A stretch of DNA of 64,000 bases from a virus. Shown here piece after piece: positions 3-30,595 of the stretch; the first letter of the stretch is position 1, and each line of letters starts with the position of its first letter. Where the stretch lies: positions 1 through 64,000 of IMG/VR virus record IMGVR_UViG_3300049434_000042. The stretch is one strand, 5' to 3'. The notes under the pieces are model-generated. The model had not been told where the DNA came from and made no database searches. It saw only the letters and a program-made list of their open reading frames with translations. The position numbers were made by a program, and so were the translations under genes.

Positions 3-416
3 GCTTCGCGTCGGTCGCTGCGTTCCGTCGCGTGGGCTCTCGGCGGGCTCATCGTGGGTCTCGCTGTCGCGGCCGATCGCTGGTCGCTGCCGACGCTGGT
101 TATGGCGGTCACGCTCGGTCTCGTCGCCGGTTTCGTCACCGGTTGGGCCGGTCGGACTGGCGAAAATGCGCGGTGGGCGGAGGAGTGCCGGCGGTTGGTG
201 GCCGTTGCGGAGGATGGCGAGCGGATCGCTCTTGCCGAGTGTGAGCGGCTAGCTGCGCTGCCGGTGGCCGTGCCTATGCAAGCGGCGATGCCGGCGATCA
301 ATGTGCACGTTCATACCGGCGGTGACCCTTACCGGGATCTCGCCGGCGCCGCAGCGGCCGCGGTTGCTGCGCGGCTACCGATGGTGTTGGAGGCGGGTGA
401 CCCTGATGGTGGGTGA
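3..416 (+). CDS. 5'-truncated small membrane protein next to the conjugation block
   Basis: The reading frame is open to the left edge of the window, so the true start is not visible. The visible part begins with two hydrophobic stretches (roughly residues 10-22 and 25-45) separated by a short polar turn, followed by a charged soluble tail rich in Ala and Glu. The stop lies inside the start region of the next gene (11-nt overlap), which suggests translational coupling with the DUF2637 protein. No known enzymatic motif is visible. Its place just before Spd-like and TraG-like genes suggests a role in plasmid transfer or spread, but that is inference from context. Confidence 0.6.
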   Translation, partial: ASRRSLRSVAWALGGLIVGLAVAADRWSLPTLVMAVTLGLVAGFVTGWAGRTGENARWAEECRRLVAVAEDGERIALAECERLAALPVAVPMQAAMPAINVHVHTGGDPYRDLAGAAAAAVAARLPMVLEAGDPDGG

Positions 417-1572
417 CCAGCAGATCGAGCAGATCGAGCAGACCCGGCGCAGTGTGTTAGGGCTGACGTGGGGATGCGCGGCAATCGTGATGGCGACGAG
501 CGCGGCTAACGCGGTTTTGACCTTCCAAGCGTTGGAGGGGAACCGTGCGGTCGGTCTCGGTTTCGGTGTCGCAGTGGATCTCGCGTTGTGCATCGGGTTG
601 ATCGGTGACCGCCAGCTCCATATTCACGGTGAGTCGTCGAGTTGGGCTCGCGGTCTTCGCCTCACGGCGATGGCGATCTCTGTGGTGCTCAACACGGGTG
701 CCTCGATGATGCACGGGCACTACTTCCTCGGCGGGGTGTTGTGTTTCCTGCCGGTGCTGTTGTGGGTGCTCACGGAGTACGGGCAAGACGTCGCGCTCAA
801 GTTCACGCGGCTGGCCGACTCGGCGAGGATCAAGACCGAACGTCCCGCTCCGGCTCCGCCGGTGGTGGCTCCGGTGGCTTTCCCGGTCGTATCAGGCGCA
901 CCGCTCCAAACGTGGCGGCCCATACCGCCACCAGCAGCACGACCGTCAGCCCCACATCAGGTAGACGAGCCAGCGGGTCAGAGAGTGACTCTCGTCGAGC
1001 AGGTACGTCGGGCGTCACAAGCCGAGGACATCACCCGGGTTCCGGTTCAGCGGGAGGAGCCAGTCGCCGAGGTGGCACCGGTGCAGGTCGCCGAGCCAGT
1101 CGAGGTGCCGAAGCGGCAGATCCCGTCGGTGTCGTCGCCGGTCAGGCCGGTGGCGGTTTCACCCTCGCGGGACTCGAAGCGTAACGACTCAAGCACCGTC
1201 GACGATCACGTCAGTGTGGTCCGTCAGATGCTCGTCGATGCGGTCTCGGCTGGTCAGCCTGCACCCGGGCACCCCGCGGTAACGAAGAGGCTCGGTGTGA
1301 CGCAGTACCGGGCCCGGCAGCTTCTCCAGTTGGCGCGTGACGCGGCAGCTACGGAGGCAGTCAACGGCGGTGCCCGTCGGGGCAAGTTGGCAGCAGTAGG
1401 GCAGCGATCAAGCCGGCCCAGTGTCGAGGGTGGTCTCAGTTCGGATGAGCCTCTCGCCGTGTCGCAGCAGGTAGCCAGTGGATCGCCCGGAGGTCAGCAC
1501 ACCACGCGTCCCGCATCAACGACTCCCGTCAAGTCTGACCGGGTGAGACGAGCCGCCGTGGGCGGTCCCTGA
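406..1572 (+). CDS. DUF2637 (Spd-like) membrane protein with C-terminal HTH-like segment
   Basis: A 388-residue protein if started at ATG 406, which overlaps the previous stop. The N-terminal third carries four hydrophobic segments in the arrangement typical of DUF2637 proteins of actinobacterial plasmids and integrative elements (SpdA/SpdB-like spread proteins). A long Pro/Val/Glu-rich linker follows (about residues 150-300), then a helix-turn-helix-like segment around residues 300-320 containing VTKRLGVTQYRARQLLQ. Family members are linked to intermycelial or intercellular plasmid spread in Streptomyces; the biochemical role is not settled. An upstream in-frame start at 301 would lie wholly inside the previous gene and is less likely. 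Neighbours (SSB, TraG, relaxase) fit a transfer operon. Confidence 0.7.
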   Translation: MVGDQQIEQIEQTRRSVLGLTWGCAAIVMATSAANAVLTFQALEGNRAVGLGFGVAVDLALCIGLIGDRQLHIHGESSSWARGLRLTAMAISVVLNTGASMMHGHYFLGGVLCFLPVLLWVLTEYGQDVALKFTRLADSARIKTERPAPAPPVVAPVAFPVVSGAPLQTWRPIPPPAARPSAPHQVDEPAGQRVTLVEQVRRASQAEDITRVPVQREEPVAEVAPVQVAEPVEVPKRQIPSVSSPVRPVAVSPSRDSKRNDSSTVDDHVSVVRQMLVDAVSAGQPAPGHPAVTKRLGVTQYRARQLLQLARDAAATEAVNGGARRGKLAAVGQRSSRPSVEGGLSSDEPLAVSQQVASGSPGGQHTTRPASTTPVKSDRVRRAAVGGP

Positions 1573-1687: not shown

Positions 1688-2167
1688 ATGAACGAGACCA
1701 TTCTCCGCATTACCGGCAACCTGACCGCTGACCCAGAGCTCCGCTTTACCCCTAACGGGATCGCAGTCTGCAACTTCACCGTAGCTGCCACGGAGCGTCG
1801 CTTCGATAAGGCTACCGGCGGATGGGTCGACCAAGAGCCCGTCTTCATGCGGTGCACCGCTTGGAAGCAGCTAGCCGAGAACATCGCCGAAAGCTGCACC
1901 CGGGGAATGTCCGTGATGGTCTCCGGGACTCTCAAGACGAACCGCTACGAGACCCGCGAGGGTGAGAAGCGCTCCAGTCTCGAACTGACCGCGCAGAAGG
2001 TCGGGGTCGATCTCCAGTTCGGTACGGCGAAGTTCGCGAAGGCTGAGCGCACCGGCGGCAAGCCGGCTAGCAGCGACGCTCCGCAGAGCGACGACCCGTG
2101 GGCGAACGTCCGCGGCCCGCAGACTCCGACCGAAGAGCCTCCGTTCGACGACGAGCCTCCGTTCTGA
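1688..2167 (+). CDS. ssb: Single-stranded DNA-binding protein (SSB)
   Basis: A 159-residue SSB. Residues 1-105 form the OB-fold, with recognisable starts such as NETILRITGNLTADPELRFT and the middle signature VFMRCTAWKQLAENIAES. A flexible Gly/Ser/Pro linker leads to an acidic tail ending DDEPPF, the canonical tip by which bacterial SSBs recruit partner proteins. A GAGGAGG ribosome site lies 8 nt before ATG 1688. Actinobacterial conjugative plasmids often carry their own SSB near transfer genes, where it protects incoming single strands. A second, divergent SSB is encoded at 34031-34393; this one, with the intact tip, is the more host-like. Confidence 0.93.
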   Translation: MNETILRITGNLTADPELRFTPNGIAVCNFTVAATERRFDKATGGWVDQEPVFMRCTAWKQLAENIAESCTRGMSVMVSGTLKTNRYETREGEKRSSLELTAQKVGVDLQFGTAKFAKAERTGGKPASSDAPQSDDPWANVRGPQTPTEEPPFDDEPPF

Positions 2168-2515: not shown

Positions 2516-4519
2516 ATGGGCCTCGGTACCGAAGTCGCTCTGATCAGTGCCGCGCTGGCGTTGGTCGGTGCTGGCCTCTTCTGGAAGGCGAAGAGCTACC
2601 CGCCGGCGGCGGGGATGGCGATCGTCTTGCTCGTCGCGCTCGACACGATCTCTCACATCCTGCCGATCGTCACGCTCTTACTGATCGCGGCGAAGGTGTA
2701 CTCGAAGTACACCGGGACGGCGTCGCTCGTGAAGCGGTGGGCGGGTCGAGCTCGGCGGAAGTCGGGGGTCGCCTCCTCGTTCGACGTTTTCTGGCGCGCG
2801 TCGTGGTTCGCGATGCGCCGGCAGGCCCACATCCTCCGGCCGAGCTTCGCTTCGTTGCCGTCGACGAAGGGCCTCGATTCGCTGGCGAAGCTATGGGCGG
2901 CTATCACGCTGACCGTCGTGGGTTGCTTCCTCGTTCCGTCGGGTGCGCTGTATGTGCTGCCGGCGGCCGCGTGCGGGATCCTGCTCGGCCACCTATGGCG
3001 GCGTGGGTCTGGCTGTCCGTCGATGGCGAGGCGGTGGCGGGTATGGGGGACGACGCTCTCGCTCGTCGTGGGTGTGCCGTTGCACGCGTTCTCGATCCGG
3101 CTTGCTCAGGTTGGGTGGTTCACACTTCGGCAGCCGATCGAGCTCGTGACCCTGATTTTCGGGGGCCCTCGGAAGGGCAAGTCGGGTTTGCTGATGCGGA
3201 TCATTATCGACGCGCCGGGTGCTGTGATCGCGACGTCGACGAGGACGGATCTGTACGACTCGACGCAGGGCATGAGGAGTCTCGGCGGGCGGCCGGTGTA
3301 CGTGTTCAATGCGGCCGGGCTCGGGAAGCTGGCGTCGACGGTGACGTTCCCGGTGCTGGCGGGTTGCACCGATCCCGTCGTCGCGATGGGCCGGGCGGAA
3401 GACATGCTCTCGGGTCAGGTTGGTGGCGGGGAGCGGGAGCATTGGGTCGCCGAGGCGAAGCGGATCTTCGGGATCTTCCTGCACGCGGCCGCGCTCGATA
3501 AGCGTCCCCTCGAAGACGTGCAGCGGTGGATCTCTGACACCGACCGATGGCACCGTGAGATCACGGCGGCTCTCAAAAAGTCGTCGCAGCAGATCTACGG
3601 GCCGATGGTCGAGCAGTTCCTCAAGACGAACGACCGGACGCGGACCTCGGTCACGAACGGGCTCTCGCCGGCGCTGGCGTGGCTGGCGTCTCCTGCAGCG
3701 GTGGCGGCCGCGTCGGATCTGTGCCCGCTGGACGTCGAGGATCTGCTGCGTCGGCGTGGCACGGTGTACCTGCTCGGCGCGAAAGAGACTCATACCGCGC
3801 CACTGCTGGCCGGGTTGACTGGTCTTATTGCGCGGGAGGCTCGCCGTTTAGCTGCGTCGGATTCGAGCGTGTCATCGGGTCGCCGGCTCGATCCTCACCT
3901 GACGTTGGCCCTCGACGAATGCGCACTGATTTGCCCTATCCCTCTCGACGACTGGTCGGCTGATATGGGTGGCCGCGGTGTTCACATTGTGGCGTGTTTC
4001 CAGTCTCGGGCAGATATTCGCGCGAAGTGGGGAGTCGAAGGCGGTAAGCGCATTTTCAATAACTCGGGCGCGATGGTCCTATTCGGTGGGACGAATGACG
4101 AAGAGGACGCGCGGCTTTGGTCGACTCGGACCGGGGTCCGGGATGAGCTCGTCGGCGGGCAGACGCGGCAGGTGCCGGTTTTGACTCCGCAGCAGATCGC
4201 GGATTTGCCGCCGTGGCGTGTGGTGCTATTCCCGTCGGGGATGCCGTGTTCGCTCGGGAAGGTCAAGCCGGCGTGGAAGTACCGGGACTATAAGCGGTGG
4301 ATGCGTCACGAGGCAGCCGCTACGCAGGCTGCGGTCGATTCGGTTATCGCTGCGGCGGAGCGGGAGACGGAGCTCGCGGAGTCGGTGCCGGCGTTGTCGT
4401 GGTCGGGCGACGGTGTGTACCGGTCGGGTGGCGCGGTCGACGAGCCGGTCGGTCCGGTGCCGGCGCAGCGGTCGGTCGACCCGCGGTCGAATAGTCGGGC
4501 GGGTGGTTCGGGTGAGTGA
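2516..4519 (+). CDS. Type IV coupling protein, TraG/VirD4 family
   Basis: A 667-residue membrane ATPase. ATG 2516 is chosen because GAAGGGAGG lies just upstream; the frame runs further up but without a comparable site. The N-terminal 200 residues hold several hydrophobic segments (about 3-20, 24-60, 125-160). The Walker A motif GGPRKGKSG is near residues 216-224 and the Walker B motif LTLALDECA near 462-470, followed by a TraG-typical region containing GGTNDEEDARLWSTRTG. Coupling proteins bind relaxosomes and pump DNA to a type IV secretion channel. It overlaps the next gene by 8 nt and is followed two genes later by a relaxase, the usual order in actinobacterial conjugative plasmids. No channel (VirB4/VirB6-like) gene is visible, so the channel may be encoded to the left of the window or supplied elsewhere. 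Confidence 0.9.
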   Translation: MGLGTEVALISAALALVGAGLFWKAKSYPPAAGMAIVLLVALDTISHILPIVTLLLIAAKVYSKYTGTASLVKRWAGRARRKSGVASSFDVFWRASWFAMRRQAHILRPSFASLPSTKGLDSLAKLWAAITLTVVGCFLVPSGALYVLPAAACGILLGHLWRRGSGCPSMARRWRVWGTTLSLVVGVPLHAFSIRLAQVGWFTLRQPIELVTLIFGGPRKGKSGLLMRIIIDAPGAVIATSTRTDLYDSTQGMRSLGGRPVYVFNAAGLGKLASTVTFPVLAGCTDPVVAMGRAEDMLSGQVGGGEREHWVAEAKRIFGIFLHAAALDKRPLEDVQRWISDTDRWHREITAALKKSSQQIYGPMVEQFLKTNDRTRTSVTNGLSPALAWLASPAAVAAASDLCPLDVEDLLRRRGTVYLLGAKETHTAPLLAGLTGLIAREARRLAASDSSVSSGRRLDPHLTLALDECALICPIPLDDWSADMGGRGVHIVACFQSRADIRAKWGVEGGKRIFNNSGAMVLFGGTNDEEDARLWSTRTGVRDELVGGQTRQVPVLTPQQIADLPPWRVVLFPSGMPCSLGKVKPAWKYRDYKRWMRHEAAATQAAVDSVIAAAERETELAESVPALSWSGDGVYRSGGAVDEPVGPVPAQRSVDPRSNSRAGGSGE

Positions 4520-5153
4520 ACCGACGAACGGTCGGTCGGAGGGTCATTCGACCGCGTTCGACTGGAAAGGTGCGTTCCGGTCGTTCGGGCAGGAGTTGGA
4601 GCGGGTCAACCGTCGGGTTACCGACCTCGACGAGCTGCTCGCCACGCTCGCCCGGGATGTGACGGCGATCAATGAAACCTTGGAGGACGCGAAGGGCCAG
4701 GCCACGGTGTCGTGGCTGCTGCTGGCGGATCCGGTGGCGGCCGTGGCGGTGCTCGGGGATCTGGCGGTGTGGTGTGAGGAGGTCTACCTCCGGTACGACG
4801 ACGCGGCGTTGCCGGCGTGCTGGCTGTGGCATGCCGGGCTCGTCGAGGAGCTCCTCACCCTCCGCCAGGGTCACGCTGACGCCTTCCACTCGAAGTCACG
4901 CTCTGCAGCGAAGGCTCTGGACTGGCACGAGCGGTACCGGCCCGGCGTAGTCAAGCGGCTCCTCGAAACGGTCCGGGACTGCGACCTCTCCAAGCACGAG
5001 CCACCAGCACTGCCGAGGCCTACCCCTCTCAAGCTCACGATCGAACGAGCAGCAGTAGCTCACGCGCAGGGACTCACCATCACTCCAACCTCTGACGAGA
5101 TCACCGAAGCAGACGCCTACCAGCCGGACTACACACCCACGCAGCAGCAGTAA
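4512..5153 (+). CDS. DUF4913-like transfer-operon protein
   Basis: A 213-residue protein starting at GTG 4512, overlapping the coupling-protein stop by 8 nt. Residues 25-65 form a predicted coiled coil (heptad pattern after WKGAFRSFGQELERV). The middle region around CEEVYLRYDDAALPACWLWH resembles DUF4913 proteins, which are commonly encoded between coupling proteins and relaxases in actinobacterial plasmids. The tail is polar and proline/threonine-rich. Function unknown; the position suggests a relaxosome or coupling accessory. The DUF assignment is from visual similarity only. Confidence 0.65.
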   Translation: MSEPTNGRSEGHSTAFDWKGAFRSFGQELERVNRRVTDLDELLATLARDVTAINETLEDAKGQATVSWLLLADPVAAVAVLGDLAVWCEEVYLRYDDAALPACWLWHAGLVEELLTLRQGHADAFHSKSRSAAKALDWHERYRPGVVKRLLETVRDCDLSKHEPPALPRPTPLKLTIERAAVAHAQGLTITPTSDEITEADAYQPDYTPTQQQ

Positions 5154-5190
5154 CGAAGGCACCCTCTCAACCGATCACTCATCTACAGAG

Positions 5191-5261
5191 CAAGATCACG
5201 AGAGCAGGTCAACCCATGAACACACAAGATCCAAATACACAATCCACTACCAAGATCACGA
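5191..5261. repeat. 11-bp direct repeat before the relaxase gene (oriT candidate)
   Basis: CAAGATCACGA occurs at 5191-5201 and exactly 60 bp later at 5251-5261; a third partial copy (CAAGATC) begins at 5225. The stretch 5154-5343 is visibly poorer in GC than its surroundings and lies directly upstream of the MobF relaxase gene, the usual place for an origin of transfer. The nick site cannot be identified by eye. The second repeat falls inside a 44-codon frame. Confidence 0.4.
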
Positions 5262-5350
5262 AGTCAGTCACACCTAGGCATCCCGATGTCCAGGTGATCG
5301 ACTTCGCGCTTCGCGCTCGTCTATCGAAGATCAACGGCACGCCGTGTTAA
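5216..5350 (+). CDS. 44-aa leader-like ORF overlapping the relaxase start
   Basis: ATG 5216 follows GAGAGCAGG at good spacing. The 44-residue product is rich in Thr, Gln and Asn at its start and basic in the second half (FALRARLSKING). Its TAA overlaps the GTG start of the relaxase by 7 nt, and that start has no ribosome site of its own, so the small frame may exist to couple translation into the relaxase. Codon use is less GC-rich than its neighbours. It could alternatively be non-coding oriT DNA. Confidence 0.45.
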   Translation: MNTQDPNTQSTTKITKSVTPRHPDVQVIDFALRARLSKINGTPC

Positions 5351-8300
5351 GCGTCGGCGTCGGGTATGACTCTGCGTACTACACGGGCATCGTTGGGTCC
5401 GGCCGTGAGGGCTACTACACGGGCGCCTCAGCGACGGGCGAGCCTCCCGGCGTCTGGCACGGTGCCGGCGCTGCGGAGCTCGGGCTCGTCGGGGAGATCG
5501 ACCCGGAGCTCATGCACGCTATCTATGACCTACTCCTCGACCCGCGGGATCCGAACACTCACGACCGGACGACATGGGGCAAGGCGGAGGGCCTCGGCGC
5601 GGCGCACAAGCACTACCAGTCCGCGGAGCAGCTCTACGCAGCGTCACTAGAGCGGGAGCCCGACGCCGGCCCGGAGCGACGATCCGAACTCCGGCAAGCG
5701 GCGGAGGAAGCGGCCCGGCAGGCGGTCGAGTTGATCGACGCGACGTTCTCGCCGGCGAAGTCGGTCACGGTCACCGCGGCCAGCTTCGAGCGGATGGCCA
5801 ACGATGCTGCAGCGCGTGGTGACCACGAGGCGGCCGCCATGTGGTCGATGCGGCATGCGGCGGTCGAACATGCGGTGATGATGGGGGCGACCGCTTCGGT
5901 CGACTACCTGCAGGATGTCGCCGGCTACGGTCGAGTGGGCAAGCACACGGCGGGTGGTCCTAACCGTTGGGTCGACTCACATAAGTGGGTGGTCGCGCAG
6001 TTCCTACAGCACGACAGTCGACTGCACGATCCTCAGTTGCACGTACATCAGGTAATCCTCAACCGTCAGCTATGCGCCGACGGGAAGTGGCGCGCGCTCG
6101 ACTCGCGGGCGATCCATGGGTACAAGCGGGCAGCCGGCGCGATGGGTGAACGGGTCATGGAGGCCGAGCTCGCACGGTCGCTCGGTCTGCAGTTCGAGAC
6201 GCGCGTCGACGGTCAGGCCCGGGAGGTCGTGGGAGTCGACCACAGGGTTATGGATCTGTTCTCAGAGCGGTCGAAACACATCAGCGCGAAGACCGCGGAG
6301 CTCGCCGACGCTTTCCGGGAACGGTACGGCAGGGAGCCGTCGGCGCGGGACATGACGATGCTCAAGACCGAGTCCACGCTCATTACTCGTAACGCGAAAG
6401 AATACGGCGGGGAGAGTTTCGTTGAGCGTATGGACCGGTGGGAGGCGCAGTGCCGCGCGGAGATCCCGGCCGGGTTGGCCGCGGTCGCCGAAGCCGTTCT
6501 CGAGAACGCAGCGCGGCCCGCGGAGCCGGCGACGTGGGTGCCTCGGGACGTAACCGAACGGGCCCTCGCAACGCTGACGGATAAGGGTCAGACGTGGGGC
6601 GACTCGGACGTCACGGGCGCGGTTGATAAGGCGTTGCCGGCAAATCTCGGGCTCGCTCCGCAAGACGTCCGGCCATTCTTGGAAAGTGTCGTCGCGGAGA
6701 CGCTGGCGGCCGCTATCCCGGTCAAGAAAGGCGAGACCACCACCAATCTGCCGAGCGCTCTGCGTTTGGAGAATGGACGCTCGGCGTATGAGGCACCAGC
6801 GGCCCGCCGGTGGACGGCGGAGGGTGTGGTCGCCGCGGAGCGGTTGCTGCGTGATGCCGCCGTGCTGCGGGGGGCAGCGACGGTGAGCTTGGAGCAGGCC
6901 GAGGAGTACATCGCGCGGTATGCGTCGTCGGATCATCGCCTCGGTGAGGATCAGGCCGCGATGCTGCGGGGGATCCTGACGTCGGGGGCGTTGACGGAGA
7001 CGGTGTGCGCGCCGGCGGGGACGGGCAAGACCTTCGCCGTTGGAGCGGCCGCAGAGGCGTGGCGGGAGATGGGTCGCAGCGTCGTCGGGCTGGCCACTAC
7101 GCAGAATGCGACGGAAGAGCTCGCGGCGGAGGGGTTGGACTGTCGGAACATCGCCGGGTGGCTCAAGGCGCAGGAGCGGATCGAGCAGGGTCACCCACGG
7201 CCGGGCGATGAGCTCTTCGAGTTGACGCCGGAGTCGATGGTGTTCCTCGACGAGGCGAGTATGACGTCGACGCTCGACCTCGCACGGGTAGCGGAGAAGT
7301 GCAACGACGCCGGCGCGAAACTGGTCTTCGTTGGTGACCCGGCGCAGCTCTCACCGGTGGGCCCGGGTGGTGCGTTGGCTGACCTCGCAGAGCACGGGAT
7401 CCGGTACGAGCTCTCGACGGTGCGACGGTTCGCTGACCAGTGGGAGCGGGATGCCTCACTGCGGTTACGGGCGGGCGATAAGTCGGCGATCGCGGATTAC
7501 GACAAACATGGCCGGCTGCGCGATGGGGGAAGTCGGGAGGAGACGGAGGCGGCCGCTGCCCGGGCGTGGCTGGCCGACACGCTCGCGGGGAAAGAGTCGC
7601 TCCTACTGGTCGGTACAAATGACGCAGCGGACCGGATCGCGGGGCAGTTGCGGGACACGCTCGTCGAGCTCGGCATGGTCGAGGAGGCCGGTGTTCCGCT
7701 CGGGATGCAAGGCACTGTCGCCGGCGTCGGTGATCTCGTGCAGGCCCGTCGCAACGGCTGGGAACTGACGGGATACGAGGGGAACACGCGGGCACCGATC
7801 AACCGTCAGGCCTACGAGGTGACGGCGACCCGCGATGACGGCGGTCTCGTGGTGCGGGCTTTGCATGCCGACCCGGAGGATCCGGCGGCCAAATTAACGC
7901 TGCCGGGCTCCTACGTTGATTCGGCGATGTGTTTGGCGTATGCCTCGACGGTTCACGCTGCGGAGGGCCGGACGGTCGACACTGGTCACGAGATCATCGG
8001 TGACGGTATGGACGCCTCCGGGGCCCTGGTGGGCCTCACGCGTGGTCGTGAGTCCAACACGGCGTGGGCGGTGACGCAGCGGACCGCGCAGGACGCGGAG
8101 CCGGGGCAGGTTCACGAGGTCGAGGAACGCTCCGCGGTGGGTGTGATGCGGGATCTGCTCGAACGGGCGGAGGAGCAGCGAACGGCGACGGCGCAGCAGG
8201 AGCAGGCCGCGATCGACGAGGTGTCGACCCGGTCCCACGCGGAGAAGCTCATAGATGGTGTCAATCAGGTACTCGCGGACCGCTCGGCCGGTGTTCTCGA

Positions 8301-9702
8301 CGCTCTGCACGCGGAGGGTGTCCTCTCGGCGCACGACCGTGAGCGGTTGGCCGGGGATACCGGGATGGGTGCCCTCGATCAGCTGCTCCGGCGCGTTGAG
8401 CTTGCCGGCCACGATCCGCGGGAGGCGCTCGCGACCGCGGTGACGCAGCAGGGTCTCGACTCGGCGCAGTCGCCGGCGCAGGTGTTGCACTGGCGGGTGA
8501 GAACGTCATATGACGATCGTCTGACTCCGGTGGCTCGGTCGCATGCGGATCTCATTCCGGCGGATGTGCCGGCGGAGTGGCGGCCGTGGCTGACTGACCG
8601 GGCCGACGCTGCGGACGATCGTCGGCGGGAACTCGGCGCGCAGGTGGCGGAGGAGGGCCCGCAGTGGCTCGTCGAGGCTCTCGGTGCGGCGCCGGAAGAT
8701 GCGATCGCGCGGGCTGAGTACGAGCACAAGGCTGGCTATGCGGCCGCGTACCGGGAGCAGACGGGTCACACGGCGGAGGCGGATCCGTTGGGTTCGGCGC
8801 CTCCTGCAGGGCTGCCGGAGAAGTTCGCCCTATGGCACGCGGGGCATGCTGCGCTCGACCTGCCGGACGCCGGCGCGGATGAGGCGAAGATGTCCGACGG
8901 GCAGCTCCGCAACCGTGTGCGCGCGTACGAGCGTGAGACTTTCTGGGCTCCGAAGTACGTCGGCGACCAGCTTGCAGCGACGTCGACGGCAGCCGATCAG
9001 GCGAGGGTTGACGCGCAGATTTGGGGGGCCCGGGCGGAGGTCGAGACTGAGGCCGAGGCTGCGGTGCAGTTGCGTGAGGCGGCTCAAGCGGCCGCGGCGG
9101 AGGCGGAGCTTCTAGCGACGAGGGCTGCGCAGCTTGATAAGAGCGACACGCAGCGCGCGGATTGGTTTATTCATACGTCGAAGACGAGGGAGGCCTCGGA
9201 GCGTGCTCGTGCGGCGTTGGGGGCCCGTGGTGTGGACCTCGACGCGCCGGCGGAGCGGACGACTGCGGCGGAGTGGCTGGCTGCGCATGTCGAGGAGCAG
9301 CGGGCCGATGAGCGTGGGCGGCCGGTGCGTGATGAGGTCGAGCTCGTCGACGAGGAGTCGGAGGCGGTGCGCGCGGAGGTCGACGAGGCGACGACGCCGG
9401 CGTTCGCTGATGGTCTACCGGAGACGGCGCTGCAGGATATTCGGGAGACTGCGGTCCCGGATGTGACGGAGCTGGCCGACGAGGCTGTCCAACGCCGGGT
9501 GCCGGCGGTCGATGAGACGGCGGAGGCGGTGGATCGGGCGCATGAGGCTGCGCGGGAGATCCAAGCTAGGGCGACTCTCGACGCACAGAACGAGGACGAC
9601 CGTCACGCGCAGCAGCTCTCGGCGTGGGCAGCCGCGGATGAGGCTCGCGAGTACGAGTCAACGGAGTGGCAGCGGGACGAAGAGCCGGCGTGGGAGCACT
9701 AG
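5344..9702 (+). CDS. MobF-family relaxase fused to RecD-like helicase (TraA/TrwC type)
   Basis: A 1452-residue conjugative relaxase. The N-terminus has paired tyrosines (Y12/Y13 and Y24/Y25, in AYYTG and GYYTG), candidates for the nicking tyrosines. The three-histidine metal motif is HDSRLHDPQLHVH at residues 223-235. The phrase FSPAKSVTV (135-143) is also typical of TrwC-like relaxase domains. The helicase half has Walker A CAPAGTGKT (about 556-564) and Walker B VFLDEAS (about 633-639). The C-terminal 400 residues are Ala/Glu-rich and probably helical. It nicks oriT, stays linked to the 5' end and unwinds the strand for transfer through the coupling protein at 2516. GTG 5344 is chosen because the family starts only a few residues before the first Tyr pair. 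It ends convergently with the next gene (4-nt overlap). Confidence 0.95.
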   Translation: MLSVGVGYDSAYYTGIVGSGREGYYTGASATGEPPGVWHGAGAAELGLVGEIDPELMHAIYDLLLDPRDPNTHDRTTWGKAEGLGAAHKHYQSAEQLYAASLEREPDAGPERRSELRQAAEEAARQAVELIDATFSPAKSVTVTAASFERMANDAAARGDHEAAAMWSMRHAAVEHAVMMGATASVDYLQDVAGYGRVGKHTAGGPNRWVDSHKWVVAQFLQHDSRLHDPQLHVHQVILNRQLCADGKWRALDSRAIHGYKRAAGAMGERVMEAELARSLGLQFETRVDGQAREVVGVDHRVMDLFSERSKHISAKTAELADAFRERYGREPSARDMTMLKTESTLITRNAKEYGGESFVERMDRWEAQCRAEIPAGLAAVAEAVLENAARPAEPATWVPRDVTERALATLTDKGQTWGDSDVTGAVDKALPANLGLAPQDVRPFLESVVAETLAAAIPVKKGETTTNLPSALRLENGRSAYEAPAARRWTAEGVVAAERLLRDAAVLRGAATVSLEQAEEYIARYASSDHRLGEDQAAMLRGILTSGALTETVCAPAGTGKTFAVGAAAEAWREMGRSVVGLATTQNATEELAAEGLDCRNIAGWLKAQERIEQGHPRPGDELFELTPESMVFLDEASMTSTLDLARVAEKCNDAGAKLVFVGDPAQLSPVGPGGALADLAEHGIRYELSTVRRFADQWERDASLRLRAGDKSAIADYDKHGRLRDGGSREETEAAAARAWLADTLAGKESLLLVGTNDAADRIAGQLRDTLVELGMVEEAGVPLGMQGTVAGVGDLVQARRNGWELTGYEGNTRAPINRQAYEVTATRDDGGLVVRALHADPEDPAAKLTLPGSYVDSAMCLAYASTVHAAEGRTVDTGHEIIGDGMDASGALVGLTRGRESNTAWAVTQRTAQDAEPGQVHEVEERSAVGVMRDLLERAEEQRTATAQQEQAAIDEVSTRSHAEKLIDGVNQVLADRSAGVLDALHAEGVLSAHDRERLAGDTGMGALDQLLRRVELAGHDPREALATAVTQQGLDSAQSPAQVLHWRVRTSYDDRLTPVARSHADLIPADVPAEWRPWLTDRADAADDRRRELGAQVAEEGPQWLVEALGAAPEDAIARAEYEHKAGYAAAYREQTGHTAEADPLGSAPPAGLPEKFALWHAGHAALDLPDAGADEAKMSDGQLRNRVRAYERETFWAPKYVGDQLAATSTAADQARVDAQIWGARAEVETEAEAAVQLREAAQAAAAEAELLATRAAQLDKSDTQRADWFIHTSKTREASERARAALGARGVDLDAPAERTTAAEWLAAHVEEQRADERGRPVRDEVELVDEESEAVRAEVDEATTPAFADGLPETALQDIRETAVPDVTELADEAVQRRVPAVDETAEAVDRAHEAAREIQARATLDAQNEDDRHAQQLSAWAAADEAREYESTEWQRDEEPAWEH

Positions 9703-10286
9703 GAGGCGTACCGGGCGCGGGTTTCGTCGATGAGGTCGACGAGCTCGCGGTACCGGCGCGCGGTGGCTACCGCTTCGGTGTTCAGGGCGAGGCGTTGCTC
9801 GGCGTGCCGGTACCGGGCCGGTCGCAGCATGGTTGCAGCGGTGACGAGTTGCTGCGCGGTGACGGGCTGGCCGTCCTCTTGCCGGAGTGGCAGGGGGAGC
9901 GGGGAGACCTGCCCGTCGGTGCCGAGGAGCCAGCGCAGGCAGCGCCAGGTTCCGTCGGCGTAGCCGGGGTCCGTGGTGACGATCGCCCACGCTGGCACTT
10001 TGAGTTGTTGGCAGATCAGGGTCAGTGGTGGTGGGCTCTTCTGCTCCGTGAGGCTGAGCGCTGTCCAGAGCTCGGCGCGAGCGTGGTTTTCCTCGACGGG
10101 TTGCTCGTCGCGGTCGGTGATGGGCCCTACGCGGCCGCCACGTACCCACGCGATCGACGCTGCAGCACCGATGACCCATGGCCGGCGGGTGTCTTCGGCA
10201 ACGCGGAATGCCAGCCAGTGAAAGTCGTCGACTTCGGCTGGTCGAGGTGTCACCCATTGCGGGGTGCGCGCCACCCATTCACCCAC
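9699..10286 (-). CDS. Hypothetical protein (195 aa), convergent with the relaxase
   Basis: A lone minus-strand frame of 195 residues with protein-like composition: Trp-rich N-terminal half (EWVARTPQW, FHWLAFRV), then mixed alpha/beta-like sequence and a charged C-terminal helix (RYRELVDLIDETRARY). No family recognised. The start GTG 10286 lies 6 nt after a -10-like CATACT (rc of 10293-10298), which would give a leaderless transcript, a common arrangement in actinobacteria. It is the only gene in the left third that faces the transfer operon. Confidence 0.75.
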   Translation of the reverse strand: MGEWVARTPQWVTPRPAEVDDFHWLAFRVAEDTRRPWVIGAAASIAWVRGGRVGPITDRDEQPVEENHARAELWTALSLTEQKSPPPLTLICQQLKVPAWAIVTTDPGYADGTWRCLRWLLGTDGQVSPLPLPLRQEDGQPVTAQQLVTAATMLRPARYRHAEQRLALNTEAVATARRYRELVDLIDETRARYAS

Positions 10287-10681: not shown

Positions 10682-11260
10682 ATGGCAAGTCGAAGTGATC
10701 GGATCGCAGCCGAAGGTTGCCGGGATGATCTCGATAAGCGTGCGCAGATGCTCGGTCACTCAATGAAATGGGAGCTCGGAGCGGACTCGACGAAACGCGG
10801 GTGCTGCTATCACTTCGTAGGTCGGTGTGAGAACTGCGGGGCGATGGCGACGGCGATGCCCGGTTGTTCGTCGTGCCCCACAGTGCTAGACGCGCGGCGG
10901 GCGATCTGCAGCGGGCCCGGTACGGCGATCCTGACGGAGATCGAGGAGTCGCGTTCATCGGAACTCATCGCCGGCGCGGTCACTGCGTTCGGTCGAGCGG
11001 TGGCGGAAGACCAGCAGGGCGAGGTCGATGGCGAGCGGATTGGAATCGCTACCCGGGAGCTCGTCTTCCACATCGACGAAGCGGACGCGGCGATCAGGAT
11101 GGCTGGCCGGGAGCTCGATCTCCTGCTCGGTGAGTTGTACGACGTTGAGCTAGTGGGAGCTACTGGTGACGACATGCGCCATGAGCTTGAGGTGGCAAGT
11201 CGGGCGATGCGGAACGTTCTCCGGGCAGTGCAGCTCCGACGCACCCTGCTCGCACCATGA
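10682..11260 (+). CDS. Cys-rich N-terminal protein heading the plus-strand operon
   Basis: A 192-residue protein. Residues 40-68 carry several cysteines (GCCYHFVGRCENCGAM and PGCSSC), likely zinc ligands. The remainder is mostly helical, with long amphipathic stretches. It is the first gene after the promoter at 10605, has a strong GGAGGAAGAGG ribosome site, and overlaps the next gene by 4 nt. Family unknown; the layout suggests a small regulator or DNA-associated protein. Confidence 0.8.
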   Translation: MASRSDRIAAEGCRDDLDKRAQMLGHSMKWELGADSTKRGCCYHFVGRCENCGAMATAMPGCSSCPTVLDARRAICSGPGTAILTEIEESRSSELIAGAVTAFGRAVAEDQQGEVDGERIGIATRELVFHIDEADAAIRMAGRELDLLLGELYDVELVGATGDDMRHELEVASRAMRNVLRAVQLRRTLLAP

Positions 11261-11463
11261 GTGAACCGTTGCAGCCGCGTGATTGGGGCGTGTCGTGGTT
11301 CGCCGGCCGGGCACTGCCGGGGACGTGCCAGCGGTGCCAGCAGGCAGGGCCGGTGTTCACCGGTTACGAGGGCGGTCAGGTGACCGCGGTGGTGATGTGC
11401 GGGTTCTGTGGCCCGTTGGCTATTCGGGAGACGCGGATGAGCTGCGGGGTCCGTCGTGGCTAA
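11257..11463 (+). CDS. Zinc-ribbon small protein (68 aa)
   Basis: 68 residues with two Cys pairs, CQRC (about 24-27) and CGFC (about 48-51), spaced as in a zinc ribbon, and a further Cys near the end. Starts by a 4-nt ATGA overlap with the previous stop. No family name is evident. One of about a dozen small Cys-pair proteins on this element. Confidence 0.75.
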   Translation: MSEPLQPRDWGVSWFAGRALPGTCQRCQQAGPVFTGYEGGQVTAVVMCGFCGPLAIRETRMSCGVRRG

Positions 11464-11815
11464 GCAATCCCGGACGCTGGTCGGTGACGCCGAGGCGCGT
11501 CGTCGTGACGCCGGCGGGGGCATGGCCGGGGAGCACGCGGCGGAGACGGCGGTGCTCGATCGAGGTGGGTTGTGGATCGAAGGCGCGTGGTACTGGCGGG
11601 TGGACCTCGAAGCGCAGCAGCGCGCCGAGCGGGAGGCCCGCAGCAGGGCACACGCGCCGAAGACTCGCCGGGACGGTGGACCGTTGCCGTCGCTAGCGCA
11701 TTACCGGCCTACGGAGCGGTGGGTTCCTCACCCTCGTGGGCACGAGCCGTATTTCGCGGGCGCGGTGGCGCGGTTGTGGGCATGGGTTCCACCAATGGAA
11801 GGGAGCGCAGGGTGA
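11456..11815 (+). CDS. Hypothetical protein (119 aa)
   Basis: 119 residues starting with GTG inside the end of the previous gene (8-nt overlap). Charged N-terminus (SRTLVGDAEARRRDAGG), a Trp-rich centre (LWIEGAWYWRVDLEAQQRAE) and a Pro/His-rich end. No domain recognised. Operon member by overlap on both sides. Confidence 0.65.
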   Translation: MAKQSRTLVGDAEARRRDAGGGMAGEHAAETAVLDRGGLWIEGAWYWRVDLEAQQRAEREARSRAHAPKTRRDGGPLPSLAHYRPTERWVPHPRGHEPYFAGAVARLWAWVPPMEGSAG

Positions 11816-12090
11816 GTGAGGCGCACGAGGTGAGAAAGGGCCTGCAAGCGGCCGCGACGGCACTGGCCGGGATGGCGCTGCAGCAAGACCGGATCGCGGA
11901 CATGCTCGCGACGTGGGATAAGCGGGCGAGCTGGGAAGACGGGATGACCGTTCCCGACAGTGTCTACGTAGACGAGCGCCGGCAGGCGCGGACGTGGGCG
12001 TCGGCGGCCGCGGAGCTACGAGCGGCGATCGCACCGTCATCGGAAGACATCAGGGCAGCACTGGCGAAGTTGGAGGCGAGAGCGCAATGA
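11812..12090 (+). CDS. Hypothetical helical protein (92 aa)
   Basis: GTG 11812 overlaps the previous stop by 4 nt (GTGA). The 92-residue product is strongly helical and Ala/Glu-rich, with a likely amphipathic core (ATALAGMALQQDRIADML). Four-nt overlaps at both ends mark it as a genuine operon gene. Function unknown. Confidence 0.7.
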   Translation: MSEAHEVRKGLQAAATALAGMALQQDRIADMLATWDKRASWEDGMTVPDSVYVDERRQARTWASAAAELRAAIAPSSEDIRAALAKLEARAQ

Positions 12091-12275
12091 CAAACGTGCA
12101 GCGGGACGGGCGCGGCGCGTGGGTATGGCTGTCTGACGAGGAGCTCACAGTTGTGCACACGGCGCTTATGGAGTCCGCGAACACGGAGCGGAGGCTCTCG
12201 TTCAATGGGCACGACGAGCAGGTTCGGGTAGTCGAGGGTCTGATCGCCCGGGTACTGGGAGCGGTGCCGGCATGA
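12087..12275 (+). CDS. Hypothetical protein (62 aa)
   Basis: ATG 12087 overlaps the previous stop (ATGA). The product contains an alpha/beta-like stretch GAWVWLSDEELTVVHTALME and ends with a helix. Coupled by overlap to genes on both sides. No family recognised. Confidence 0.7.
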   Translation: MTNVQRDGRGAWVWLSDEELTVVHTALMESANTERRLSFNGHDEQVRVVEGLIARVLGAVPA

Positions 12276-12619
12276 CCGACGAGGACAAAGTCGCGGCCGC
12301 GCAGCAGATCGCGGAGCAGATGGCGCTGCAGCTTCACCTTGCGGTAGTCGTGACGCCGGTGGGCGAGGACGGCTGGCGTTGGGGGCAGCCATCGGTCGTC
12401 GAGGCGAGTCACGTCCTCTCGGTGCTCGATGACGGTGGGTACGAGCCGGGTGGCTTCACTCGGACTTTGATTGAGGCGATGCTGCGGGCGGATGCGTTGA
12501 GTCTCGGCAAACTGGCGCTCGCTTTCCCGGGCTATGCCTCAGCCATCTATGCGTACAAGTTCGACCTCGACGGGCTCGACCGGCTCCGAGTGGTCGTTTG
12601 GGGGAATCGGAGGCCATGA
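12272..12619 (+). CDS. Hypothetical protein (115 aa)
   Basis: 115 residues, starting by ATGA overlap. An N-terminal amphipathic helix (AAAQQIAEQMALQLHLAVVV) is followed by mixed alpha/beta sequence ending in basic residues. No motif for a known activity. Part of the same tightly packed operon. Confidence 0.7.
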   Translation: MTDEDKVAAAQQIAEQMALQLHLAVVVTPVGEDGWRWGQPSVVEASHVLSVLDDGGYEPGGFTRTLIEAMLRADALSLGKLALAFPGYASAIYAYKFDLDGLDRLRVVVWGNRRP

Positions 12620-13062
12620 CTGAGGAGGAGCGTCGGACGTTGCGGGCGGATCTCCTGCTCGCCTTTCAGGACTCGGAAGTTATCAAGGTCGCCGAGGACG
12701 GCAAGCCGGTGCGGTGGGATTCCGCGACGGGTGAGGAAGCCGAGCGGATGGCGGATCTCGTGTTCGCGGTGCTCGACGAGCATGGTCTCGACGTCGTCGA
12801 GGTGCCCGGTGCGTCTCGGGGTGAGCGGGAGGCCGCGGAGCTGGCCACTAGCTACCGGGTGACCGACGCCGGCGGCCAATTGATCGAGGAGGGGTCGCCC
12901 GTCCGGTATCCGAATGGCGTCGAGGGGATCTTCGGCCGGGTCATCACCCCCGGCTGCGTCGAGGTGGACGGGTTCGCGCAGCTATCGAGCAAGTTCGGGC
13001 TGACGGTTATCTCCGTCGCGCCGGCGGAGCTCACGATGCCGGATTTGCCTGCAGAGCAGTAA
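12616..13062 (+). CDS. Hypothetical acidic protein (148 aa)
   Basis: ATG 12616 gives the usual ATGA overlap; a GTG-type start slightly upstream lies within the previous gene. The acidic 148-residue product has a helical first half and a beta-rich second half (GSPVRYPNGVEGIFGRVI) that resembles a small SH3-like or barrel fold, by sequence pattern only. It is the last gene before the WhiB leader. Confidence 0.7.
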   Translation: MTEEERRTLRADLLLAFQDSEVIKVAEDGKPVRWDSATGEEAERMADLVFAVLDEHGLDVVEVPGASRGEREAAELATSYRVTDAGGQLIEEGSPVRYPNGVEGIFGRVITPGCVEVDGFAQLSSKFGLTVISVAPAELTMPDLPAEQ

Positions 13063-13094
13063 CGCTCGGACGTCGAGCAGCGATACATCAGAAA

Positions 13095-13130
13095 GGGCCC
13101 GTCGACGGATCGGCCCGCACAGCACGGAGG
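13095..13130 (+). promoter_or_regulatory. Conserved leader with imperfect hairpin before whiB
   Basis: A GGGCCCG...CGGCCC imperfect hairpin (13095-13116) is followed by CAC and the 10-mer AGCACGGAGG (13121-13130), 8 nt before the GTG start. The CGACGG element in the loop is shared with the leaders at 27.2 and 30.6 kb. Confidence 0.55.
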
Positions 13131-13138
13131 TGAGATCA

Positions 13139-13549
13139 GTGGACTGGCGGCATCGTGGATCGTGTCGGGACGAAGACCCGGAGCTCTTTTTCCCAGCTCC
13201 GAAAGACACGCGTGCGCTGGCCGAGGCCCGTTCGGTGTGTGAGACCTGCCCGGTAGTGGCGGAGTGCCTCAAGTGGGCCCTCGATAACGGTCAGATCGAC
13301 GGGGTGTGGGGCGGTCTGAGTGAGGACGAGCTCCGTAAGCACCCTGATCGGAAGGGTCAGACCGGGGGGATCGAGGCCTACGTCGAGTGCCGTCGGTGTC
13401 ACAAGATGCTGCCGGTAGAGCGTTTCGGCCGTGACCGGAATCGGTCGAGTGGCCGTAAGGCGCGGTGCGGGAAGTGTGTTTATGCGGCGGAGTCGGATCG
13501 ACGGGCGCGGAAGCGAACGGAGGTGCAGGAGTCGCTGTTTGCTAGCTAG
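13139..13549 (+). CDS. WhiB-family iron-sulfur regulator with C-terminal zinc knuckle
   Basis: A 136-residue protein. The N-terminal 80 residues are a Wbl domain: first Cys in GSCRDEDPELFFP, then CETCPVVAEC giving the C-x2-C-x5-C set, then the signature turn GVWGGLS. Wbl proteins bind a 4Fe-4S cluster and act with the primary sigma factor at promoters. After a short basic linker a second module has CRRC and, about 20 residues later, CGKC, a zinc-knuckle layout usual in phage HNH-type proteins and not normally part of Wbl proteins. GTG 13139 is chosen because GGAGG sits 8 nt upstream; the earlier in-frame GTG overlaps that site. Phage-encoded WhiB proteins are known to modulate host transcription and superinfection. 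Confidence 0.92.
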   Translation: MDWRHRGSCRDEDPELFFPAPKDTRALAEARSVCETCPVVAECLKWALDNGQIDGVWGGLSEDELRKHPDRKGQTGGIEAYVECRRCHKMLPVERFGRDRNRSSGRKARCGKCVYAAESDRRARKRTEVQESLFAS

Positions 13550-13554
13550 TTAGT

Positions 13555-13594
13555 GGGGCCCGGCTGACGTGGTCGGGCCCTTTCAGCACGGAGG
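13555..13594 (+). terminator. GC-rich hairpin with TTT tail abutting the leader of the next gene
   Basis: GGGCCCG (13556-13562) pairs perfectly with CGGGCCC (13574-13580) around an 11-nt loop, extended by a G-U pair, and is followed by TTTC and at once by AGCACGGAGG (13585-13594). It can end the whiB transcript or, as RNA, present or hide the ribosome site of the 13602 gene. Confidence 0.65.
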
Positions 13595-13601
13595 CGAGGA
13601 G

Positions 13602-16600
13602 ATGGCAGTGAGTGAACCATTTGACGGTCTTAACGAGGAATGGCTAGCTGAGGAAGATGCTCGGTCTTTGGCATTTCAGGCGACCGGTGGGCGGTCGTGG
13701 TATCAGTCGCCGAGCGACGGGACGTGGCGGTCGGTCACCGGTGGGTGGTCGCCGTCGGAGCTCGCTAATCGGATGACGATGGGGGACGCGACTCCTCGGC
13801 ATGAGGCGGCCGCGGCTGACTTCTGGGCGATGGCGGCCCATCAGGCGTACGTCAATGCGAATTACCGCGCGGAGGAGGAGCTGCAGCGCGACGTCGACGA
13901 GGAGACCTCGCAGTCGCAGCAGGCCGCGGTCGAGGCTACGGAGCTGGTCGACTTGACGGGGCAGATCCTCGTCGAGTTGCAGGATGAGGCCGATCGGCTC
14001 AACGACCGGGCCGACGCGGTCGAGCAAGCACAGTTTGAGGCCTATAACGCTCGGGTCGAAGCGGTCAAAGCGGTGCATGAACAGTTGATCGACCGGGATT
14101 TGTACGACTCTCACCGTCATCAGGACGACTACAGCGACGAGATCTGGGCGCAGGCTGAGCAGCTCGTCGACGTGGGCATCACGAGCGCTGACGTCGACGT
14201 GATGACGGGCCAGCGCGACACCTACCACGAGGAGTACGACGACCTGTACGAGCAGCACCAGCACGCCGAGTTTGAGCGGCAGCGTGACGAGCGTAAGGCG
14301 CAGATGGCCGCGGAGGGCCCGGTGTCGGAGGCGTGGCGCGCAGCGGTGGGAGTGACGTACCACGAGCAGGTACTCGAATACGGCAACGATGGTCGACCGG
14401 AAGACGATCGGTTTTTGACCGACGCCGAGCAGGCCACGCGAACGGCTGCGGTCGACCTGATCGCCCGGGCGACGGGTGTCTCCCCCGGGTACGTGCATAG
14501 CGAATTGCAGGACGCAGCCCACGCTTACGGGCAGGCGCCGGGCACTGACTATGACCCGGACTACTTAGCTCCGCCGGACTGGTCAGAGTTTGTGAGCGGC
14601 TACGAGCGTCTCGGTTTCGAGCCGGCTCCGCCGGAGGCAGTCGAGGGCCCTTTAGTCCTAGAGGACGGCACCACTTTCACGGCTGACGAGCCAGCACCGG
14701 TCAAGCTCACAGAAGCGGGCGAGGCGGAGGCACTGGCTAGCGCGTGGGATGCGCAGGCCGAGCGGATGCGGGGCGATGTTGCCAGTGACTTGCTCGCGGC
14801 GAATGTCGAAGAGCTCACCGGGGCGACTCTGACCGAGGAGATCCCGGAGGCCTTGCTCGATCGGGGTATGAGCTCCGATGAGTTGTCGGCCGAGCTCTTC
14901 CCGGAAGGTGATGCTGCGGTCGGCGACAACCTCGCACGTATGGAAGAGACCGCCGGCGTGCTCCCTGATACATGGGAGGCAAAGAATCCCGACGCTCCGT
15001 GGGCAGCGCATGAGGACAACGTCGCGGCCGCGGTCGATGCGTTCGGGCCGGATGTGTTCCGTCCGTTGCCGGCTGAGCTAGTCGACGCGGTTGCGGCGGA
15101 AGCGGCCGCGGGCTCGGAGCTCGAACTGGCCGCAGGTGAGCGGGAGCGTGAGGAGCACACTGACCACCTCTTCGAGGAGGCTCTCGCGACGGATCCGGCG
15201 TTCGCTGCGCGGATCGCAGATAGCGCCCGGTCGCATGCCGAGGCGGCTCTCGGTCGGGAGCTCGAACCGTGGGAACACGCAGCGATCGACAATGCGGCCA
15301 GGGAGGGTGCCGAGCTCGACGCCGACGATCTGACGACGAAGCGGGCCGAGCGGGACTACGAGGACGCGATGAGCGCTGGTCTGGCCCGAGAGGAGGCTCT
15401 CGCAAATGCGGAAGCGGACCTCGGTCGAGATCTGACCTTCGAGGAAGCGGTTGCCGCGGTGGCCAGCGTCGACGCGCAGGACGGTGACGGGCTCGACGAG
15501 CGGGTCGACGACGAGGCAGCTACGGCGGAGCGGTGGGACGATACCGTCGCCTCCGCCGGCGCGTGGCAGGACTTCCTCCGTGGTCAGGAGACGGCGAAGG
15601 TGGCCGAGCTCGAAGCGGAGGCCGGCGCGCTGCAGCAAGACCTCGACGCGGGCAACGTGCCAGCAGCAGAGGAACACGCGGTAGCCGAGCACGTCCAGCA
15701 CCTCGAAGAGGAAGCGGCGATCGCTCGCGGGGAGTGGCCGTTCGAGAGCGCAGCACCGACGCCGGCGATGCAAGAGCAGATCGACACGCACCGTGCGGCG
15801 TGGGATGCGGCTACCGAGGACGTGGCCCGGATGCAGGGCACGACGGTCGACACCCTCGACGTGCCGATCGTGACGGCTGATGACTTCGCTGAGCTCGTCG
15901 AGCGGGCCGAGGCTGCAGTGCGGGAGGAGGAGCGGCTCGCAGGCGCGGACGCGGCCGCTGACGTCCAAGAGCAAGCCGACCTAGCCGGCGCGGCAACGGA
16001 GCCGGCGGAGTATTGGACGCCGGCGCGTGAGGCGGAAGCTGCAGCGCAGTATCAGCGGGCTTTCAACGCGGCCAACGCCGACCCGGCGACTATTCCGCCG
16101 GAGGTGTACGCGAAGGGTTGGGATGCGGTAGCTGACTACCAGCAGGAGCAGGTCGACGCCGACCCGGATCCGGCGGGTTGGGCTTCCCTGCCGGCTGACG
16201 TGCCGGAGTGGGTAGCGGAGCAAGGCTCCGAGGCGACTGCTGATTACGTCGCCGAGCGGGCCGATCGAGAGTCCGTTCCGTCACCGGTGGCCGGTGATGA
16301 GGAGCTCGGCGACGACGAGCCGGATCGTGAGGGTCACGGGGTGCCGTCAGATGAGGAAGTCGAGGCGCGGGGTTACGGGCTAGATGCGTACGAGCAGGCC
16401 CTCGCAGACCCGGATGACGACGACGGGACGGTGTACGACGATCCAAAGTTTCGGGCTGAGCTCGAAGCGGCTGCAGCGGCCCGGGCGGAGGCAGCGGAGC
16501 AGGGAAAATCGGAGGCCGCGGAGGCAGTACAGGCAGCGCATGAGGCCACGCAGGAAACGGTCGACGCGCAGCAGTCAGCCGACGCGGCCGCACCAGCGGC

Positions 16601-16643
16601 GGAGTCAGCCGCGGAGAGCAGTGGGGATGGTGACGGGTCGTGA
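13602..16643 (+). CDS. Very large acidic Ala/Glu-rich coiled-coil protein (1013 aa)
   Basis: A 1013-residue protein starting at ATG 13602, 7 nt after the AGCACGGAGG leader. The composition is extreme (Ala, Glu, Asp dominate) with long coiled-coil-like stretches at about 95-170 and 500-760 and a low-complexity Ala/Glu/Gln tail. A short internal repeat is visible (LGRELEPWEHAA and LGRDLTFEEAVAA, about 60 residues apart). No catalytic motif is recognised. The style resembles the C-terminal third of the relaxase, which may point to a shared origin or partnership. It is the largest gene of the operon, so a structural or scaffold-like role in DNA transfer or virion function is possible but unproven. 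Confidence 0.85.
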   Translation: MAVSEPFDGLNEEWLAEEDARSLAFQATGGRSWYQSPSDGTWRSVTGGWSPSELANRMTMGDATPRHEAAAADFWAMAAHQAYVNANYRAEEELQRDVDEETSQSQQAAVEATELVDLTGQILVELQDEADRLNDRADAVEQAQFEAYNARVEAVKAVHEQLIDRDLYDSHRHQDDYSDEIWAQAEQLVDVGITSADVDVMTGQRDTYHEEYDDLYEQHQHAEFERQRDERKAQMAAEGPVSEAWRAAVGVTYHEQVLEYGNDGRPEDDRFLTDAEQATRTAAVDLIARATGVSPGYVHSELQDAAHAYGQAPGTDYDPDYLAPPDWSEFVSGYERLGFEPAPPEAVEGPLVLEDGTTFTADEPAPVKLTEAGEAEALASAWDAQAERMRGDVASDLLAANVEELTGATLTEEIPEALLDRGMSSDELSAELFPEGDAAVGDNLARMEETAGVLPDTWEAKNPDAPWAAHEDNVAAAVDAFGPDVFRPLPAELVDAVAAEAAAGSELELAAGEREREEHTDHLFEEALATDPAFAARIADSARSHAEAALGRELEPWEHAAIDNAAREGAELDADDLTTKRAERDYEDAMSAGLAREEALANAEADLGRDLTFEEAVAAVASVDAQDGDGLDERVDDEAATAERWDDTVASAGAWQDFLRGQETAKVAELEAEAGALQQDLDAGNVPAAEEHAVAEHVQHLEEEAAIARGEWPFESAAPTPAMQEQIDTHRAAWDAATEDVARMQGTTVDTLDVPIVTADDFAELVERAEAAVREEERLAGADAAADVQEQADLAGAATEPAEYWTPAREAEAAAQYQRAFNAANADPATIPPEVYAKGWDAVADYQQEQVDADPDPAGWASLPADVPEWVAEQGSEATADYVAERADRESVPSPVAGDEELGDDEPDREGHGVPSDEEVEARGYGLDAYEQALADPDDDDGTVYDDPKFRAELEAAAAARAEAAEQGKSEAAEAVQAAHEATQETVDAQQSADAAAPAAESAAESSGDGDGS

Positions 16644-18736: not shown

Positions 18737-18820
18737 CAGTAACGGGCGGTGTCTCGCCGGCGATAGTCCGGGTGTGAGGCGCGCACCCGGCGGGCCCGGA
18801 AGGTAGAAGAGGTGGGCCGA

Positions 18821-30587: not shown

Positions 30588-30595
30588 TGTGTGTT

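Follow-up and report, generated by a model that had tools for sequence, protein, structure and literature searches.

Genes at the locus

We analysed a window of 64,000 nucleotides (bases 1-64000 of the IMG/VR virus record IMGVR_UViG_3300049434_000042, here G000, whose 66,264 bp extend 2,264 bp beyond it), in which genes for a type IV coupling protein (TCP) and a MOBF relaxase lie on the same DNA as a tailed-phage genome. Both genes had been proposed by a sequence-only reading of the window, and profile searches and inspection of the residues confirmed them. The TCP is of the TraG/VirD4 type (2516-4519, plus strand; 667 residues) and matches PF12696 TraG-D_C (8e-16) and PF02534 T4SS-DNA_transf (4e-12). 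It has the features of a type IV coupling protein, with a Walker A motif (GGPRKGKS), a Walker B motif (ALDE) and an N-terminal transmembrane segment, and its closest solved structure by profile is TrwB of R388 (1e9r, 5.6e-9). The relaxase-helicase (5344-9702, plus strand; 1452 residues) matches PF08751 TrwC (2.5e-45), AAA_30 (9.5e-51) and the NCBIfam MobF family NF041492 (1.1e-42). All the hallmarks of a MOBF protein are present: the TrwC-type domain, the N-terminal tyrosine pair (Y24/Y25), the HUH histidines (in the triad HDSR..PQLHVH) and the C-terminal superfamily 1 helicase, with intact Walker motifs. The residues Y24/Y25, H233 and H235 are invariant in the four phage MOBFs that we aligned. 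By profile, the closest solved structure is TrwC of R388 (2e-23), and an AlphaFold2 model of the relaxase domain, built from four sequences and of moderate confidence (mean pLDDT 68.7), has a fold that matches TrwC (1zm5, E 2e-11).

Several smaller genes accompany this pair. Adjoining the TCP is a partner protein of 213 residues (4512-5153, plus strand), with homologues at the equivalent site in an independent phage contig (G018, described below; E 4e-20), in a plasmid of Streptomyces tendae (2.4e-7) and in one of Natronoglycomyces albus (3.5e-6). A single-stranded DNA-binding protein (SSB; 1688-2167, plus strand) had been noted by the earlier reading and was confirmed (PF00436, 1.8e-30); it is 50% identical to an SSB of G018. 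Upstream of the TCP lies a membrane protein of 423 residues with two transmembrane segments (301-1572, plus strand), in the position of the DUF2637 proteins of G018 and of Streptomyces plasmids. It had been labelled DUF2637, a label that profile searches did not support: those with Pfam (DUF2637 at E<0.1), PHROG and NCBIfam profiles gave no match, leaving a positional counterpart whose C-terminal end weakly matches the DUF2637 protein of G018 (E 2e-4, under relaxed settings in one pairwise comparison). The Spd-like gene of the earlier reading fared no better, since profile searches of the contig gave no Spd match. Convergent with the relaxase gene, a protein of 195 residues (9699-10286, minus strand) has a weak homologue in G018 at the equivalent site and in the same orientation (E 1e-4).

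The remainder of the contig belongs to the genome of an actinobacterial phage, most of which the window covers. The phage genes run on the minus strand from about 20 kb to the end of the contig, which leaves 10 kb between them and the module, as the earlier reading had stated. They include a split terminase, portal, major capsid and tape measure genes, which place the element in Caudoviricetes, together with genes for Dit, endolysin, DnaB, ERF and RusA. An independent contig of 35 kb (G001) repeats the region 30.5-65.3 kb of G000, mostly at 84-97% identity.

The module in independent phage contigs

The earlier reading had advised searching sequence collections for elements that combine MobF and TraG with portal and capsid genes. 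When IMG/VR was scanned with five aligned MOBF relaxases, three more phage contigs with a MOBF were retrieved, all from other metagenomes (G017, G018 and G019); two of them encode a TCP. Scans of the same database with a single MOBF or a single TCP sequence gave no match, and neither did a scan with a TCP alignment, though two of the three contigs contain TCPs; this last scan is thus insensitive, and the prevalence of the module is a lower bound.

The closest parallel is G018 (69 kb), where early genes are followed by a tyrosine integrase (phrog_1, 8e-58), a DUF2637 protein (2e-11), the TCP (41% identical to that of G000), a partner protein of 230 residues, the MOBF (48%) and the late genes. 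These end in an HK97-type set with capsid (phrog_10), protease, portal (phrog_2662/phrog_12) and terminase (phrog_9). The module is therefore bounded by early phage genes on one side and late ones on the other, in a phage whose packaging family differs from that of G000. G017 (35 kb) encodes a serine integrase (phrog_95, 5e-96), a MOBF (43% identical to that of G000), terminase (phrog_38), portal (phrog_104), scaffold and tape measure, and no coupling protein was found on the contig. G019 (37 kb) carries primase genes, the partner protein, a TCP (31%), a MOBF (32%), ParA, a terminase match of 266 residues and a tape measure. Counting G000, four phage contigs with differing packaging genes have a relaxase among their phage genes, and three of the four also have a TCP. 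Because independent contigs hold the module amid phage genes, it is a recurring feature and not an accident of a single assembly; this also counters the possibility, raised with the original proposal, that the left 10 kb and the phage genes never share a molecule.

In phylogenetic trees, the MOBFs of G000, G018 and G017 group in a clade of their own (support 98/100, 41-48% identity within it), separate from the sampled plasmid MOBFs, among them top PLSDB matches. The TCPs of G000 and G018 also pair together (100/99). The plasmid sampling in both trees is small, and the MOBF of G019 falls outside the phage clade.

One further candidate was discarded. The coupling protein of contig G011 lies beyond the integrase of a prophage, beside excisionase and integrase/RepSA-like genes, and probably belongs to a flanking integrative and conjugative element (ICE). 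This ICE-like element (G011, 55346-58027) stands next to an integrated phage whose terminase is of the same family.

A candidate origin of transfer

The 190-bp gap ahead of the relaxase gene (5154-5343) is a predicted origin of transfer (oriT). Its GC content is the lowest among the gaps of the contig (rank 1 of 26; 0.53 vs 0.665), it contains four of the seven AAGATC hexamers of the contig, and it has an imperfect hairpin at 5259-5306 that was equalled in 4/200 shuffles of one strand and 13/200 of the other. In G018, the gap from the partner gene to the MOBF operon is again the lowest in GC (1/28). The corresponding gap of G019 ranks only 3/15, yet contains nearly the lowest window. The pattern is not universal: in G017 a part of the gap upstream of the MOBF is GC-poor, but not the gap as a whole. 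Judging from these sequence features, 5154-5343 probably holds the oriT, and we treat the pattern, which was spotted post hoc after inspection of the data, as a lead and not as a test. In plasmid p1 of N. albus, about 21 copies of a short repeat of the GGGTCGGACTCG type (30472-31416) lie upstream of the MOBF gene and likely form an oriT or an iteron array.

Relation to known elements

The gene set most resembles that of small MOBF plasmids of actinobacteria (S. tendae NZ_CP043961, Streptomyces sp. A2-16 p1 and Natronoglycomyces albus p1), which share the TCP, the partner of about 205 residues and the MOBF. In the two Streptomyces plasmids a DUF2637 protein precedes the module, as in G018. A VirB4-like ATPase was not found in these plasmids, as in the phage contigs; more broadly, a search of six MOBF plasmids gave none over the cut-off and one sub-threshold match, with the control (ADLER F1725, see below) clearly positive. 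The plasmids differ from the phages in having no virion genes and in their MOBFs: those sampled are only 33-36% identical to members of the phage clade and branch elsewhere in the tree. Among solved systems, TrwC and TrwB of R388 are the nearest relaxase and coupling protein. R388 encodes a complete type IV secretion system (T4SS), unlike G000, where VirB4 was not found.

Known phage-plasmids of Streptomyces and related actinobacteria (the pSAM1-type 90-kb plasmids, Actinoalloteichus pGBA129-24a and Corynebacterium phiCmus45274), retrieved by a capsid search in plasmids, are likewise tailed-phage genomes kept as plasmids, and none of the ten records tested has a TrwC or a TraG-D_C domain. A portal search in plasmids found none. 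Pfeifer and Rocha (PMC10879196) describe two P1-like phage-plasmids that have a relaxase or oriT, as do 30 plasmids descended from this group. In those P1-like cases the gain came mostly with loss of phage genes, whereas here the virion gene sets are retained and a coupling protein is added.

The closest cultured relatives of G000 are the Arthrobacter phages KellEzio, Kitkat and DanielleIgnace (49-56% identity for the split terminase, 37-40% for the portal), which have neither relaxase nor coupling protein. No cultured phage matches the TCP, and in INPHARED a MOBF match of some length came from a single element, represented by two records: the Mycobacterium "phage" ADLER F1725 (KF981876). We rejected it as a precedent: KF981876.1 encodes ESX genes, EccB/EccD, a VirB4-like ATPase, VirD4, MOBF and ParA. 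Virion genes are neither annotated in it nor recognisable among the largest of its proteins that lack a name, and the record appears to be a conjugative plasmid deposited under a phage name. A literature search largely confined to open-access papers turned up no account of a tailed phage that has both a coupling protein and a MOBF. What appears to be new is a tailed phage, mobilisable or akin to a phage-plasmid, in which a conjugation module that lacks VirB4 recurs, phage-plasmids with a relaxase or oriT being already known from the P1-like group.

Proposed function and alternatives

The gene set is best read as a mobilisation module that recurs in actinobacterial tailed phages. We favour, with a probability of roughly 58%, the reading that the phage carries relaxase and coupling protein as such a module and would have two routes from cell to cell. 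By analogy with TrwC and TrwB of R388, the relaxase would introduce a nick at the oriT of the phage DNA while the phage resides as a plasmid or prophage, and would unwind the nicked DNA with its helicase; from there the single strand would be passed by the coupling protein into a membrane channel. Because no VirB4 is encoded, this channel would either be taken from a resident conjugative element or be made by the DUF2637-type membrane protein with the coupling protein. The small plasmids with the same module and no VirB4 hint that these two proteins may suffice.

A number of observations weigh against mobilisation. The earlier reading had seen no VirB-type channel gene, and we found none either: no VirB4-like ATPase (AAA_10) passed the cut-off in the whole 66-kb record of G000 or in G017, G018 and G019. 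G000 has no integrase (tyrosine or serine), ParA or plasmid Rep recognised by the profiles used. The DUF2637 identity of the 301-1572 protein leans mostly on its position. The contig is linear, and no terminal repeats (direct or inverted, at least 10 bases) were found that would show the circular closure for which the earlier reading had proposed to look. Lastly, the contig of the close relative G001 stops short of the module region, and G002, the nearest non-identical relative (terminase 76% identical), shows only a strand flip there before it too ends.

These results also bear on the class of the element. Without a VirB4-like ATPase, G000 does not qualify as a self-transmissible T4SS element; for a mobilisable element it has the relaxase, and as oriT only the candidate defined by low GC, repeats and hairpin. 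It is no actinomycete integrative and conjugative element of the pSAM2 type, which combines an integrase with an FtsK/TraB translocator and double-strand transfer (PMC3218068), since it has no integrase, its ATPase is of the TraG/VirD4 type and a relaxase is present. As regards a phage-plasmid, the phage genome stands and a plasmid form is conjectural: no integrase was found, but no ParA, recognised plasmid Rep or terminal repeat either. Among the other contigs G019 has ParA, and G018 and G017 have integrases; because related phages carry integrases the label "phage-plasmid" may be too narrow.

The main rival explanation, which we regard as unlikely but the most serious, is that MOBF and its partners serve phage replication inside the cell: the relaxase would nick an origin for rolling-circle or strand-displacement replication and the TCP would move DNA for packaging or segregation, with no transfer between cells. 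The missing channel ATPase on all four phage contigs fits this, as do the adjoining SSB and the MOBF of G017 with no TCP on its contig, and a separate MOBF lineage in three phages is expected if the job is phage-specific. On the other hand, G000 already encodes its own DnaB with a DnaC-like loader, as well as a second SSB, and its closest cultured relatives manage without relaxase and TCP. The conserved TCP beside the relaxase fits poorly, since no part for such a protein in phage replication is known.

Mobilisation could also go further than we propose. The lineage might long have kept an apparatus independent of VirB4 (membrane protein, TCP, partner, MOBF and oriT), such that the gene set itself is the transfer machine and the prophage or plasmid form conjugates unaided, alongside virions. 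We consider this doubtful. A second rival, also improbable, is that the module is cargo: plasmid genes caught when phages and plasmids recombined in shared hosts, short-lived or acting on a co-resident plasmid, and with no role in the spread of the phage. Genes are documented to pass between plasmids and phage-plasmids (PMC10879196), and small plasmids carry the same module. However, neither reading frame (667 and 1452 codons) is broken and the catalytic residues are kept, and the depth and support of the phage MOBF lineage (41-48% identity, 98/100) imply that these genes have long been retained in phages.

There remains the junction itself, near 19-20 kb, where an assembler might have fused a host plasmid to a phage genome. 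The strand switches at about 19-20 kb, the contig is linear with no terminal repeat, G001 spans only 30.5-65.3 kb, and G011 illustrates how ICE-like genes can come to stand at the edge of a prophage. The order of the terminase genes speaks for a genuine junction. In KellEzio and DanielleIgnace the gene for the terminase ATPase is followed by RusA and small genes, then by the nuclease gene and the portal. In G000 the orthologous halves are far apart on the linear contig: the ATPase half (22694-23434, minus strand; phrog_28155 1.9e-88; 49% identical to DanielleIgnace, 56% to KellEzio) is followed by the RusA-like resolvase (20425-21081, minus strand; PF05866 4e-8, phrog_140), and the nuclease half, outside the window (64131-65090 of the record; 52-53% to DanielleIgnace/KellEzio), adjoins the portal (62368-64000, minus strand, ending at 64134 of the record; phrog_33334 4e-100). 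The order of the cultured phages is recovered only if G000 is circular, which would place the 0-19 kb arm between the terminase halves, within the phage map. In G002 the strand also flips just past the RusA-like gene. In tetranucleotide composition, the correlation of the module arm is 0.54-0.63 with its own phage arm and 0.63-0.67 with the same phage in G001, as against at most 0.55 with the other phage and plasmid records tried. No repeats common to the module and the phage arm, which would hint at joint regulation, were found. Gene order, strand flip and composition together support a true junction, short of proof, and with the same block flanked by phage genes on both sides and joined to unrelated late genes in G018, and the phage-type MOBF clade, a chimeric assembly is very improbable.

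Virions and conjugation are usually seen as separate routes, and these contigs make their joint use by one element testable: some viruses may spread both in particles and through bacterial mating. The module likewise makes it testable whether a small gene set without VirB4 moves DNA in actinobacteria. For metagenomes there is a caution, in that matches to a relaxase or a coupling protein alone do not tell plasmids from phages.

Other features of the contig

The module is joined to the early phage region by small genes and an acidic protein of 1024 residues (10682-18415, plus strand). The latter (13569-16643), alanine-rich and the sole large gene without an assignment, has no Walker A motif and no relative in PLSDB or by close IMG/VR search. 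The gene at 18014-18415 has an actinophage homologue (E 8e-11); each half of its product matches a different actinophage (JustASigh and Kela), so it may be a fusion. A tRNA-Gln (UUG) lies at 18665-18737 on the plus strand.

Scanning genome contigs with the nuclease half of the terminase turned up no prophage from actinobacteria. Within the phage part, the replication and recombination genes recognised by profiles (32721-38946, minus strand) encode a RecB-like nuclease, SSB, ERF, DnaB and an IstB/DnaC-like ATPase. The virion and lysis genes (40091-61629, minus strand) comprise tail fibre, endolysin, minor tail proteins, Dit, tape measure, tail tube, major capsid and their neighbours; the tail fibre gene contains tandem copies of a unit of about 219 bp (40817-41473) and matches collagen-like tail PHROGs. 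Intergenic inverted repeats of 42-49 bp at 20096-20142, 38564-38605 and 57444-57492 are probably terminators. A protein of 75 residues (23884-24111) with only a LexA-type DNA-binding domain is a possible phage regulator, and another, in the early region (27259-27861), has a GmrSD_C/HNH nuclease domain.

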